Below, piece after piece: positions 6,876-10,828 of a stretch of DNA of 27,658 bases. Below the pieces are notes generated by a model. The model saw only the letters and a program-made list of their open reading frames with translations. It did no database searches and was not told the origin of the DNA. The stretch is from a virus. The translations under genes and the position numbers were made by a program. Numbering within the stretch: position 1 is the first letter of the stretch; each line of letters starts with the position of its first letter. The stretch is from positions 1-27,658 of IMG/VR virus record IMGVR_UViG_3300023210_000170; one strand, 5' to 3'.

Positions 6876-6997
6876 AAGAACTAATTGGTGACATAGACAT
6901 TATAATAAATGCTATAGATATGGGAGATAATGAAGATGCTATTAAAATGCTCCAGGAGATACAAAGAGAATTAAAAATTAAACTATTACTATTATGA
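6872..6997 (+). CDS. Tiny acidic helical protein (41 aa)
   Basis: This 41-residue frame is bounded by overlaps on both sides (ATGA with the exonuclease and ATGA with the DnaA-like gene), the pattern seen throughout this operon. The product is a pair of short helices (IDIIINAIDMGDNEDAIKM and LQEIQRELKIK) with a Leu-rich end. I cannot assign a family or function. The exact overlap spacing is the main support that it is translated. Confidence 0.55.
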   Translation: MKELIGDIDIIINAIDMGDNEDAIKMLQEIQRELKIKLLLL

Positions 6998-7416
6998 AAA
7001 AGAGAGCTTTAGATGTAGCAAGACAAGTAAGTAACCTTGCAGAGTTGAATCCATTTGACAATACAAGACAAAGAGAGTATGTAGAAGCTAGAGCTTTGAT
7101 CTGCTTAATACTAAATAAATATCTGGGAATAGGATTATCTAGAATAGCAAACTTCTTCAAGGAGAATAAAAAGGATATGCATCACGCAACTGTATTACAC
7201 TTAGTAAGAAGTTTTGATACTTACAAGTTCTACAACAAGAACCTAGACAAGTGGTTAGATGTTATTGTAAACGATATTGATGATGTGGGAAATGCAAACA
7301 AAAGAATGTTAATTAAACATCGTATTAAATATCTTACTAATAAAGACATAGATGAATTAGCTCTCTATACAGAGGATATGTATAATAAAGTTTTACAAAA
7401 AGAAGAAGTTAGTTGA
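6994..7416 (+). CDS. DnaA domain IV-like DNA-binding protein
   Basis: The 140-residue product carries a region (about 30-75) that looks like the DNA-binding domain of DnaA. It runs VEARALICLILNKYLGIGLSRIANFF, then an HHATVLHLVRSF segment corresponding to the DHSTV signature. In DnaA this helix-turn-helix reads DnaA boxes. No AAA+ domain is present, so it cannot act as a full initiator alone. It may mark the phage origin or recruit host factors. It overlaps both neighbours by 4 nt. The His-Ala replacement for Asp-His-Ser in the signature suggests altered site specificity. Confidence 0.6.
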   Translation: MKKRALDVARQVSNLAELNPFDNTRQREYVEARALICLILNKYLGIGLSRIANFFKENKKDMHHATVLHLVRSFDTYKFYNKNLDKWLDVIVNDIDDVGNANKRMLIKHRIKYLTNKDIDELALYTEDMYNKVLQKEEVS

Positions 7417-8516
7417 ATCACTTAGATTTATTTAGTGGCATTGGAGGTTTTAGTCTAGGACTTAAAAGAGTATTTAATATTAAGCATTCTTATTTTTCAG
7501 AGATAGATAAGTATGCAATAGATGTATATAAACATAATTTTAAAAACAGTACTTATGTCAAATCAGTTACAGATATTCGAGGAAGGGACTTGCCAAGAAT
7601 CGATGTTATCACTTTCGGAAGTCCTTGCCAAGATTTTAGTATGGCTGGAAAGAGAAAAGGAATGGATGGCGAAAGATCAAGTCTTATCACCGAAGCAATT
7701 AGGCTTATCAAAGAATGCAGACCAAGTTTTTTTATCTGGGAAAATGTTAAAGGAACTTTCTCCTCAAACTCTGGCGAAGACTTTTGGGCAATTATCCAAA
7801 CCTTTGCAAACATTGGGGACTATAGACTTGAATGGCAACTGCTTAATACAAAGTGGTTTCTACCCCAAAATAGAGAGAGAATCTACCTTGTCGGATGTCT
7901 TGGAGAAGGAAGTGGGAAACAAATATTTCCTATCACAGAAAACAGTAGAGAGATTAATGAGCTACAAGGACAACAAGCAAATACCTGTACACTCACAACA
8001 AGATATGAAGCAGGAGGAAATGGGAGCTACATTATTGAATGTGAACTCGATGCACAAGAAGAAATAAAAGTAAGATCTGCAACTAAATCTGGATATGAAA
8101 TAGCTAAGGTGGGAGATGCTATAAATTATATAAATATAAATTCAGATACAAAAAGAGGTAGAGTAGGAAAACAATCAGCACAAACTTTAGATACAAACTG
8201 TTGTCAAGCTGTTATAACTGAACCTATAGTTAAAGCTGTACAGATAGGTAATTCAGAAACTTTTGGGAATTATGAAAGAGAAGGAGATGCTTTTACATTG
8301 AGAGCAGCAAATCCTAATGGTGTAAGATACAACAACAAAATAAGAAGACTAACTCCTATTGAATGTGAAAGGTTACAAGGATTTCCTGATAATTGGACAA
8401 AGAATGGTATGGAGCTTGGTGAAATATCAGATACACAAAGATATAAGATGTGTGGTAATGCAGTAACAGTAGATGTAGTAGAAGCAGTAGCTAAAAAAAT
8501 TAAAGAATCATTGTGA
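7413..8516 (+). CDS. dcm: DNA cytosine-5 methyltransferase
   Basis: The 367-residue enzyme shows all main C5-methyltransferase motifs. Motif I is LDLFSGIGGFSLGL (4-17), motif IV is GSPCQDFS with catalytic Cys72, and motif VI is ENV (110-112). Motif VIII is QNRER (152-156), and the C-terminal LTPIECERLQGFPDNW and GNAV close the fold. A variable target-recognition region lies at about 165-310; the site recognised cannot be read from sequence. The start is TTG overlapping the upstream stop (TTGA). GC rises sharply at about 7560, from 13/60 to 24/60 per line, exactly where another reading frame becomes open (see 7555-8067). It likely protects phage DNA from restriction. Confidence 0.93.
   Translation: MNHLDLFSGIGGFSLGLKRVFNIKHSYFSEIDKYAIDVYKHNFKNSTYVKSVTDIRGRDLPRIDVITFGSPCQDFSMAGKRKGMDGERSSLITEAIRLIKECRPSFFIWENVKGTFSSNSGEDFWAIIQTFANIGDYRLEWQLLNTKWFLPQNRERIYLVGCLGEGSGKQIFPITENSREINELQGQQANTCTLTTRYEAGGNGSYIIECELDAQEEIKVRSATKSGYEIAKVGDAINYININSDTKRGRVGKQSAQTLDTNCCQAVITEPIVKAVQIGNSETFGNYEREGDAFTLRAANPNGVRYNNKIRRLTPIECERLQGFPDNWTKNGMELGEISDTQRYKMCGNAVTVDVVEAVAKKIKESL
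7555..8067 (+). CDS. Overlapping out-of-frame gene inside the methyltransferase (170 aa)
   Basis: In the +1 frame relative to the methyltransferase an ATG at 7555 opens 170 codons. The frame is also open upstream to an ATG at 7522. The product ends with a segment IERESTLSDVLEKEVGNKYFLSQ, then KTVERLM. I recall short S-LSD-(I/V)LE...KY(F/Y)LS-K motifs in phage proteins encoded with or overlapping cytosine methyltransferases. Only this part of the methyltransferase has raised GC (about 37-45% per line at 7561-7920, against 22-35% around it), as expected if both frames are constrained. Function unknown; possibly a methyltransferase partner. A chance open frame remains possible. Confidence 0.55.
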   Translation: MSNQLQIFEEGTCQESMLSLSEVLAKILVWLEREKEWMAKDQVLSPKQLGLSKNADQVFLSGKMLKELSPQTLAKTFGQLSKPLQTLGTIDLNGNCLIQSGFYPKIERESTLSDVLEKEVGNKYFLSQKTVERLMSYKDNKQIPVHSQQDMKQEEMGATLLNVNSMHKKK

Positions 8517-8816: not shown

Positions 8817-9986
8817 ATGTTTTCAAAAACAGAAGCAGTAATAAAACTTAGAGAATTAGGTAGTAGAATAAGAATAGTAAGAGGAGGTTCTTCTGCAGGT
8901 AAGACTATTGCAATTCTAATGATACTTGTTGACTATGCTATTAAAAACAAGAACAAAGAAATTAGTGTAGTAGCAGAATCTGTCCCACACTTGCGTAGAG
9001 GAGCTTTAAAGGACTTTCTTAATATACTTAAACAAACTAATAGGTATGATGATAGAAAGTTCAACAAATCAACTCTAAAGTACCAATTCAGTACAGGGTC
9101 TTATATAGAGTTCTTCTCCACAGACCAACCTGACAAATTAAGAGGAGCAAGAAGAACAGACTTGTTCATTAATGAGTGCAATAACATTCCTAGCTTTGAG
9201 GTGTATCAACAACTTGCAGTAAGAACATCAGGTACTGTGTGGTTAGATTACAACCCAAGTAATATATTCTGGGTAGATAAAGAACTAATAGGACAAGAAG
9301 ATACTGACTTCCTCACATTAACATATAAAGACAATGATAGCTTACCATCTTCAATAGTAAAAGAAATAGAGAAAGCTAAAGTAAAAGCTAATACTTCTAC
9401 TTATTGGGCTAATTGGTGGAAAGTATATGGACTAGGTGAGATAGGTAGTTTAGAGGGAGTATGTATTCCTGATTGGAAATATATAGATAGTATTCCTAAT
9501 GAAGCTAGGTTATTATGTGGAGGATTAGATTTTGGATATAGCATAGACCCTAGTACGATTATCTTATTATACAAATGGAACAATGCTTACATATATGATG
9601 AGATACTATATCAAAAAGGAATGCTTAATAGAGACATAAGTAGATTTCTAAAAGACAATAGCATAACTACTCATCTATGGGCAGACTCAGCAGAACCAAA
9701 GAGTATTAGTGAGATCAGAGCTTATGGTCATAAAATATCAGGAGTTACTAAAGGCAGAGATTCAGTAGTCTATGGTATCAACCTAATAAATCAAAATGAA
9801 ATATATGTAACCTCCAGGTCTAAGAATCTAATCAAAGAACTACAAGGATATATATGGGCAAAAGATAAAGAAGGCAATAACATACAAAAACCTACAGGAT
9901 CACATCCTGACTGTATTGATGCAGCTCGATATTGTTTAATGATGCAATTAGAGAATCCTAACAGAGGTAGATATACTATTCAATGA
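8817..9986 (+). CDS. terL: Terminase large subunit (PBSX/XtmB-like)
   Basis: The 389-residue packaging motor has a Walker A loop RGGSSAGKT (22-30) and a Walker B strand with the acidic pair DLFINE around residues 115-120. The C-terminal RNase H-like nuclease begins with GGLDFGYSIDPST and includes WADSAEPKS and a final HPDCIDAARY segment with metal-binding Asp residues. ATPase and nuclease are both complete, so it should translocate and cut concatemeric DNA. It follows the small subunit directly and overlaps the PAPS-reductase-like gene by 4 nt. Length is typical for the short Terminase_3 class. Confidence 0.93.
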   Translation: MFSKTEAVIKLRELGSRIRIVRGGSSAGKTIAILMILVDYAIKNKNKEISVVAESVPHLRRGALKDFLNILKQTNRYDDRKFNKSTLKYQFSTGSYIEFFSTDQPDKLRGARRTDLFINECNNIPSFEVYQQLAVRTSGTVWLDYNPSNIFWVDKELIGQEDTDFLTLTYKDNDSLPSSIVKEIEKAKVKANTSTYWANWWKVYGLGEIGSLEGVCIPDWKYIDSIPNEARLLCGGLDFGYSIDPSTIILLYKWNNAYIYDEILYQKGMLNRDISRFLKDNSITTHLWADSAEPKSISEIRAYGHKISGVTKGRDSVVYGINLINQNEIYVTSRSKNLIKELQGYIWAKDKEGNNIQKPTGSHPDCIDAARYCLMMQLENPNRGRYTIQ

Positions 9987-10828
9987 AAAAGATTAATTTA
10001 ATATCAGGAGGTAAGACTTCAGCTTATATTGCAGCTAATTATAAATCTAATTATAATGTATTTTCATTAGTAAGAATAGAACATAATAAATCTAAATTTA
10101 AAGATGAGAAGATAAGAAAAGAAGTAGAGGATAGAATACAAGCTCCATTTATAGCTACAGCAGAAGATGATATAATTATATATACTATCTTAGATTTAGA
10201 ACAATATATAGGTAAGAAAATAAGTTGGGTAACAGGCAAAACATTTGATAAAGTATTAGATACTGCAGGAACATTACCAGACCCATTAAGAAGATATTGT
10301 ACAACACAAATGAAACTAGAACCTATATTTGAATGGTGGAGACAAAAGATTAAAGAACCTGCAGAGTTTAGATTAGGTTTCAGAGCAAATGAACAGGGTA
10401 GAGCTAAAAGAACATTAGCTAAAACAAATGAGAATGGATGCTTAGAAATGAAAGCTATAGTAGGTAAAAGAAAAACTAGAAACAAGTGGGGTATAATAGA
10501 ATGGCAAAAACCTGTATTTCCTTTAATAAAAGATAATATATATAAAGATACTATTGAACAGTATTGGAAAGATAAACCTGTTAGATTTGCTTGGATGAAT
10601 AATTGTGTAGGATGCTTTCATAAAAATCCTTTACTAATCAAAAAGATGCAATCTAAACATCCTAATAAAATAGAATGGTTCGCATCAAAGGAAAGAATAA
10701 AACATAATAAAGATGTTTGGTATAAAGAGAAGAACCTTTCCTTTAATGACATAATAAAATGGGATACACAAACTGAATTATTTGAATCTGACTTCACAGA
10801 TTGCGATTCAGGTTATTGTGGGATATAA
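9983..10828 (+). CDS. PAPS reductase/DndC-like ATP-pyrophosphatase family protein
   Basis: The 281-residue protein starts with a PP-loop, NLISGGKTS (5-13), that binds ATP in the adenine-nucleotide alpha hydrolase family. LRRYCTTQMK near the middle resembles the substrate-binding Cys/Arg/Lys stretch of PAPS reductases. Four further cysteines (Cys208 and Cys211 in NCVGCF; Cys274 and Cys279 in DCDSGYC) could hold an iron-sulfur cluster or zinc. Relatives activate or reduce sulfate, thiolate tRNA, or take part in DNA phosphorothioation. Being joined to terminase by ATGA suggests a DNA-modification or host-sulfur role, but the substrate is unknown. Family call is good, function open. Confidence 0.75.
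   Translation: MKKINLISGGKTSAYIAANYKSNYNVFSLVRIEHNKSKFKDEKIRKEVEDRIQAPFIATAEDDIIIYTILDLEQYIGKKISWVTGKTFDKVLDTAGTLPDPLRRYCTTQMKLEPIFEWWRQKIKEPAEFRLGFRANEQGRAKRTLAKTNENGCLEMKAIVGKRKTRNKWGIIEWQKPVFPLIKDNIYKDTIEQYWKDKPVRFAWMNNCVGCFHKNPLLIKKMQSKHPNKIEWFASKERIKHNKDVWYKEKNLSFNDIIKWDTQTELFESDFTDCDSGYCGI

Follow-up and report, generated by a model that had tools for sequence, protein, structure and literature searches.

A conserved gene nested in the +1 frame of phage C5-cytosine methyltransferase genes, with a putative role as a partner subunit

C5-cytosine methyltransferases made of two chains are already known. In M.AquI, two chains form one enzyme (PMC3404938), by a simple split into motifs I to VIII and motifs IX and X. 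M.EcoHK31I is also a two-polypeptide enzyme, in which motif IX is held by the small chain (PMC3404938). The small chain of M.EcoHK31I is encoded in another frame within the gene of the large chain, and M.EaeI is a further two-polypeptide C5-methyltransferase. A different kind of hidden protein is encoded by the ShiLan element, an out-of-frame HNH endonuclease found in mycobacteriophage methylases (PMC11855218). Also already known are the family phrog_16143 and the annotation of pneumophage MM1, in which the nested ORF14 (NP_150146.1) and the methyltransferase ORF13 are both annotated, each as a DNA methyltransferase. The MM1 entry is an isolated annotation, for which we found no statement on selection, breadth or mechanism. 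In the literature that could be searched, with most subscription journals out of reach, there was no account of the nested gene as a widespread family; its breadth, the evidence for selection in several lineages and the displaced segment reported below were not found described before.

The stretch of DNA analyzed here (the window) is a virus record of 27,658 nucleotides (27.7 kb) with a GC content of 31%. Its methyltransferase gene starts with a TTG at 7413, which overlaps the stop codon of the upstream gene (TTGA), and encodes a protein that carries motifs I to X, that is, all catalytic motifs. The protein matches PF00145 with an E value of 1.8e-73 over positions 1 to 323 of 324, and hence counts as a full C5-methyltransferase domain, and matches TIGR00675 (dcm) with an E value of 4.9e-76. 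The nested start at 7555 is offset by one nucleotide relative to 7413, which places the second gene in the +1 frame. The features of the locus are as follows.

7413..8516, + strand: frame 0, C5-cytosine DNA methyltransferase, 367 aa, matching PF00145 and TIGR00675
7522..7554, + strand: possible upstream extension of the nested ORF from an in-frame ATG at 7522, an ATG present in only 25 relatives
7555..8067, + strand: nested +1-frame gene P0001, 170 aa plus stop, supported by its open core, conserved ATG, synonymous constraint and match to phrog_16143
7564..7578, + strand: +1 residues 4 to 8, QLQIF, resembling a sliding-clamp motif; the motif is enriched, clamp binding is inferred
7866..7895, + strand: frame 0 motif VIII, QNRERIYLVG, read from the sequence; overlaps the start of the +1 C-terminal module
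7882..7959, + strand: +1 residues 110 to 135, STLSDVLEKEVGNKYFLSQKTVERLM, the C-terminal module; its profile aligns with the in-frame segment of Dcm-type enzymes, and it is helical in a Firmicutes-phage homologue
8343..8390, + strand: frame 0 motif IX, RRLTPIECERLQGFPD, read from the sequence; in frame and outside the overlap, with the Pfam match spanning the entire domain

The first-pass annotation, made from sequence alone, had proposed a 170-codon +1 reading frame from the ATG at 7555 within the methyltransferase gene, and this held: the frame is open from 7555 to 8067, and it is open in the relatives as well. Its hand counts of GC were exact (13/60 at 7501-7560, 24/60 at 7561-7620 and 27/60 at 7861-7920), and the drop after the frame closes reaches 16/60 at 8101-8160. 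Its suggestion that the raised GC reflects two simultaneous coding constraints is supported, since GC is higher inside the overlap than outside in 63 of 63 relatives. It had also tied an S-TLSDVLE...KYFLSQK segment, which corresponds to residues 110 to 129 of the +1 product, to phage proteins that accompany methyltransferases. This held too, with P0001 matching phrog_16143 at an E value of 9e-9 (residues 3 to 134 on positions 4 to 135 of the 139-position profile).

The locus thus belongs to the same family as MM1 ORF14, likewise nested in a methyltransferase gene; its +1 protein is a divergent, marine representative that extends further at the C terminus. Unlike in M.AquI, the frame-0 enzyme is not truncated. 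The likeness to M.EcoHK31I lies in a C5-methyltransferase made as two polypeptides; this compares the arrangement and not the sequence of the small chain, and the partner role of the +1 protein is an inference. Because motif IX stays in frame 0 in the window rather than in the small chain, we do not class the pair as an M.EcoHK31I type. Moreover, the +1 chain carries a segment proximal to motif VIII, and P0001 has no GFPxxW. With ShiLan, the window shares a hidden out-of-frame protein within a phage methylase gene. However, ShiLan is an inserted homing endonuclease with a patchy distribution, whereas the overlap seen here covers the conserved methyltransferase core and is fixed in its class (219/219, see below); no match to an HNH domain was found for the nested protein in profile searches.

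To assess selection, relatives were gathered from IMG/VR in two ways, by the methyltransferase and by the +1 product, giving a codon alignment of 63 non-redundant sequences. None of the 63 has a stop in the +1 core, whereas synonymous shuffling with the codon usage found outside the overlap predicts about 820 stops over the set (about 13 each) and within-gene shuffles about 518 (about 8 each), which excludes an open frame by chance. Synonymous-codon identity lies mostly between 0.7 and 0.96 within the overlap, compared with about 0.4 to 0.67 over most of the gene outside it. In the closest relatives, the +1 product is 96, 92 and 86% identical, compared with 84, 79 and 72% for the methyltransferase. 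The ATG at 7555 is kept in all 62 relatives in which it could be read; a longer product of 181 residues from the ATG at 7522 was considered and rejected, given that this codon occurs in so few relatives. Nested products range from 137 to 177 residues among the relatives and the final part of the ORF is variable, so the tail beyond approximately residue 135 is less constrained.

The analysis was extended to three independent lineages, namely marine viruses near the window, Firmicutes phages and the P1 dmt group, the latter two sets being fetched around Firmicutes and P1-like sequences. For the count of intact ORFs, loci were picked by the methyltransferase alone, to avoid selecting on the +1 frame. 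The +1 ORF was intact in every unique gene so selected (70/70 marine, 76/76 Firmicutes phages and 73/73 P1 dmt group, in total 219/219). The ratio of fourfold-site diversity inside to outside the overlap was 0.30 in the marine lineage (95% bootstrap interval, 0.22 to 0.40), 0.53 (0.42 to 0.63) in Firmicutes phages and 0.52 (0.40 to 0.65) in the P1 dmt group. In all three, diversity at codon position 3 collapses within the overlap, and in the 3' part of the overlap variation is greatest at codon position 1, which is where the +1 frame has its wobble position. Given that the wobble variation moves to the +1 frame, RNA structure or a frame-0 bias is not sufficient as an explanation. In this 3' part, the +1 protein is also more conserved than frame 0 (0.88 versus 0.54, 0.65 versus 0.42 and 0.66 versus 0.54). 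Finally, the family profile scores 207, 193 and 163 bits in the three lineages, compared with 84, 63 and 33 bits for synonymous shuffles with stops masked. These sequence comparisons show that the +1 product is under selection, with no experiment showing that it is made, and it is nearly certain that 7555-8067 is a real overlapping gene, a statement as well supported as sequence comparison permits.

At 322 of 323 viral loci the family sits in the +1 frame of a C5-methyltransferase, as it does at 79 of 80 loci on bacterial and archaeal genome contigs, the latter two numbers being lower bounds. The two exceptions, L311 (at 3141) and L380 (at 4141), are methyltransferase genes with an in-frame stop within the overlap and an open +1 ORF; this could reflect recent decay or, alternatively, use of the +1 protein without the methyltransferase. 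No free-standing copy occurred among the 403 loci. A search with the C-terminal motif, whose query was a consensus that served only to reach real sequences, led to the P1 dmt gene and to mycobacteriophage, Vibrio, Pseudomonas, cyanophage and Ruminococcus phage genes, and every gene from this search that matched the family profile had its ORF in the +1 frame of a methyltransferase. In P1 (AF234172), the nested ORF occupies about 66713-67198. The C-terminal motif also closes a +1 ORF in Methanobacterium virus Drs3, an archaeal virus. Within one genome (G001), the nested ORF is present in some C5-methyltransferase genes and absent from others. In a fold search, an uncharacterized 81-residue protein of mycobacteriophage Thibault matched with 41% identity. 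Taken over hundreds of phage and prophage methyltransferase genes, sequence comparison shows a nested gene under strong selection that is almost never annotated. The first-pass annotation understated its breadth: its carriers are phages that infect a wide range of bacterial groups, plus one archaeal virus. Neither of the two outcomes that it had named as refuting the gene was met: homologues do not carry stops in the frame (none in the core in 63 relatives and none in 219 loci), and synonymous variation is not normal but strongly reduced. Its further idea, that the gene pair forms a compact modification module, is plausible and remains inferred.

Two side observations concern less regular cases. 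The BFVD model A0A8S5LZA8, a viral "cytosine specific methyltransferase" of 521 aa, is 44% identical to the +1 protein over 125 columns; this might represent a +1 product fused in frame to methyltransferase sequence or a translation across a frameshift. In Sulfitobacter phage phiGT1 and mycobacteriophages SG4 and Ryadel (L408, L409 and L410), short methyltransferases without an in-frame motif IX are overlapped by a +1 ORF with a GFPxxW-like stretch (e.g., NPVWIEWLMGFPPNWT), nearer to the M.EcoHK31I arrangement; these ORFs may represent either a related or a separate overlapping family. Actinophage and Sulfitobacter proteins reached with a hand-written query had been considered as separate genes, which was rejected because they too are encoded within short methyltransferase genes, in the +1 frame.

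What the nested protein contains is clearest at its C terminus, a helical module with the motif LSDVLE..V..KYFLSxK. Aligned with hhalign, the +1 profile matches an in-frame segment of Dcm-type enzymes (probability 90, E value 1.5e-6, 33 columns), and hmmsearch with this profile hits plasmid-borne Dcm-type enzymes in frame, after motif VIII (6e-4 for L447 and 7e-3 for L446). Among canonical enzymes, 26 of 59 match the +1 profile in frame and none of the 59 has a +1 copy; conversely, none of the 322 frame-0 proteins of the nested class matches it. Motif VIII and TLTAR are separated by a median of 35 residues in the nested class versus 82 in canonical enzymes (based on the 157 and 45 sequences, respectively, in which this spacing pattern was found). 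Sequence comparison thus shows that the frame-0 enzyme of the nested class lacks a segment that Dcm-type enzymes have in frame after motif VIII. Since the +1 module resembles this segment, the simplest reading is that it is supplied in trans. An AlphaFold2 model of a Firmicutes-phage homologue showed the C-terminal helical module with pLDDT above 90 and an N-terminal half that was unstructured or of low confidence, while the window's own +1 protein gave a poor model. PDB sequence and fold searches with the +1 protein gave no solved-structure match and nothing usable, and searches against defence and general family libraries gave no meaningful match.

At the N terminus, QLx[LMIF]F is present in 66 of 70 marine relatives, compared with 1.1 expected under synonymous shuffling in which only frame 0 is constrained. 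Streptococcal, enterococcal and mycobacterial members have comparable strings (QMNLF, QMSLF and QLDLF), and in many Firmicutes and P1 members no such motif is present at the start. The sequence resembles the QL[SD]LF-like binding motifs for the bacterial sliding clamp. It is tempting to speculate that QLQ[IM]F tethers the enzyme to the replication sliding clamp, an inference for which there are no binding data.

The explanation we favor, with a probability of about 0.6, is that the nested gene shares its message with the methyltransferase and provides this enzyme with a small partner subunit, a role that is inferred. One message would then yield two proteins, the C5-cytosine methyltransferase from frame 0 and, from the internal ATG at 7555, the 170-residue +1 protein, whose C-terminal module would supply in trans the segment between motif VIII and the target-recognition region and whose N-terminal QLQ[IM]F may tether the methyltransferase to the clamp. 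That the +1 gene stays with one class of C5-methyltransferase is shown; physical binding, a need for the partner in activity or specificity, and clamp tethering are all inferred. The SpSL1 methyltransferase is active in vivo, with 102 of 113 RCGRC sites methylated (PMC6755750), and its gene carries the nested ORF (E value, 1e-41), so this arrangement does not preclude enzyme activity. Several points speak against a subunit. Neither production of the +1 protein nor its binding to the methyltransferase has been shown by experiment, and the frame-0 enzyme might work alone because motifs I to X are already present. L311 and L380 keep the +1 ORF despite the stop in the methyltransferase, which might point to a separate function or to recent decay. 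The low-confidence N-terminal structure, the poor window model and the lack of a solved-structure match count against it as well.

Alternatively, the nested protein could be a regulator of the methyltransferase, for instance an inhibitor or a timing switch, rather than a structural subunit. This is less likely but remains possible: the strict pairing with one enzyme class and the shared message fit equally well, and the frame-0 enzyme has every catalytic motif. Against it, the C-terminal module resembles an enzyme segment that is absent from frame 0, for which complementation is a better fit than inhibition. It is slightly less likely again, though also possible, that the protein serves an unrelated phage function (counter-defence, host takeover or replication) and was overprinted for compactness. 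The open +1 ORFs of L311 and L380 would agree with this, as would the contact with the host replisome that QLx[LMIF]F suggests, without binding data; however, 401 of 403 loci are nested in an intact C5-methyltransferase frame and the gene is never free, whereas a free-standing role should have separated the two in some phages. We regard ribosomal frameshifting into the +1 segment, which would yield a chimeric protein with the canonical segment, as very improbable. While the canonical in-frame segment does follow motif VIII in the +1 frame, this frame is conserved from an invariant ATG about 108 codons before the segment, a Shine-Dalgarno-like sequence is found at homologous nested starts in Firmicutes phages, and the product would be without motifs IX and X. 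That no protein exists, the frame being kept open by codon bias, RNA structure or frame-0 constraint alone, is all but excluded by the sequence evidence: frame-0 conservation does give some +1 similarity (33 to 84 bits in the stop-masked shuffles), but the observed scores are 163 to 207 bits, there are no stops, and the wobble shift to the +1 frame is not a product of RNA structure.

The partner-subunit reading can be carried further, to a methyltransferase split by frame rather than by position. In this scenario, which as a whole we consider less likely than not, a shift would have transferred the enzyme's own segment next to motif VIII to the +1 frame, to be kept there as a trans-acting subunit while frame 0 was repaired around it; a new clamp-binding N terminus would have been overprinted, and the pair would subsequently have reached tailed phages and prophages in a wide range of bacteria, as well as at least one archaeal virus.

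Prokaryotic viruses rarely offer long nested genes on the same strand that are backed by strong comparative evidence. The present one recurs across phage lineages including P1 dmt, mostly hidden beneath one annotation, and offers a tractable test of how overlapping genes originate and are maintained. It also affects the cloning and assay of phage cytosine methyltransferases, where the second protein would be lost upon silent recoding, and it could account for frame-0 residues after motif VIII that are conserved yet look meaningless.

Further observations concern the ends and surroundings of the gene. In P1-like dmt genes (L164 to L243), the 3' end of the nested ORF (RGEKRRKSLPPLLQMAL or RAEARGRKLPEMLEMAL) switches abruptly between otherwise near-identical genes, as if swapped together with the downstream target-recognition region. 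In the window, the upstream neighbour of the methyltransferase (6994-7416, 140 aa) has a stretch, MHHATVLHLVRSF, that on reading only recalls DnaA domain IV. Downstream of a terminase-like gene, a 281-aa product (9983-10828) starting MKKINLISGGKTSAYIAANYK recalls, likewise on reading only, a PAPS-reductase-type adenylyl hydrolase.
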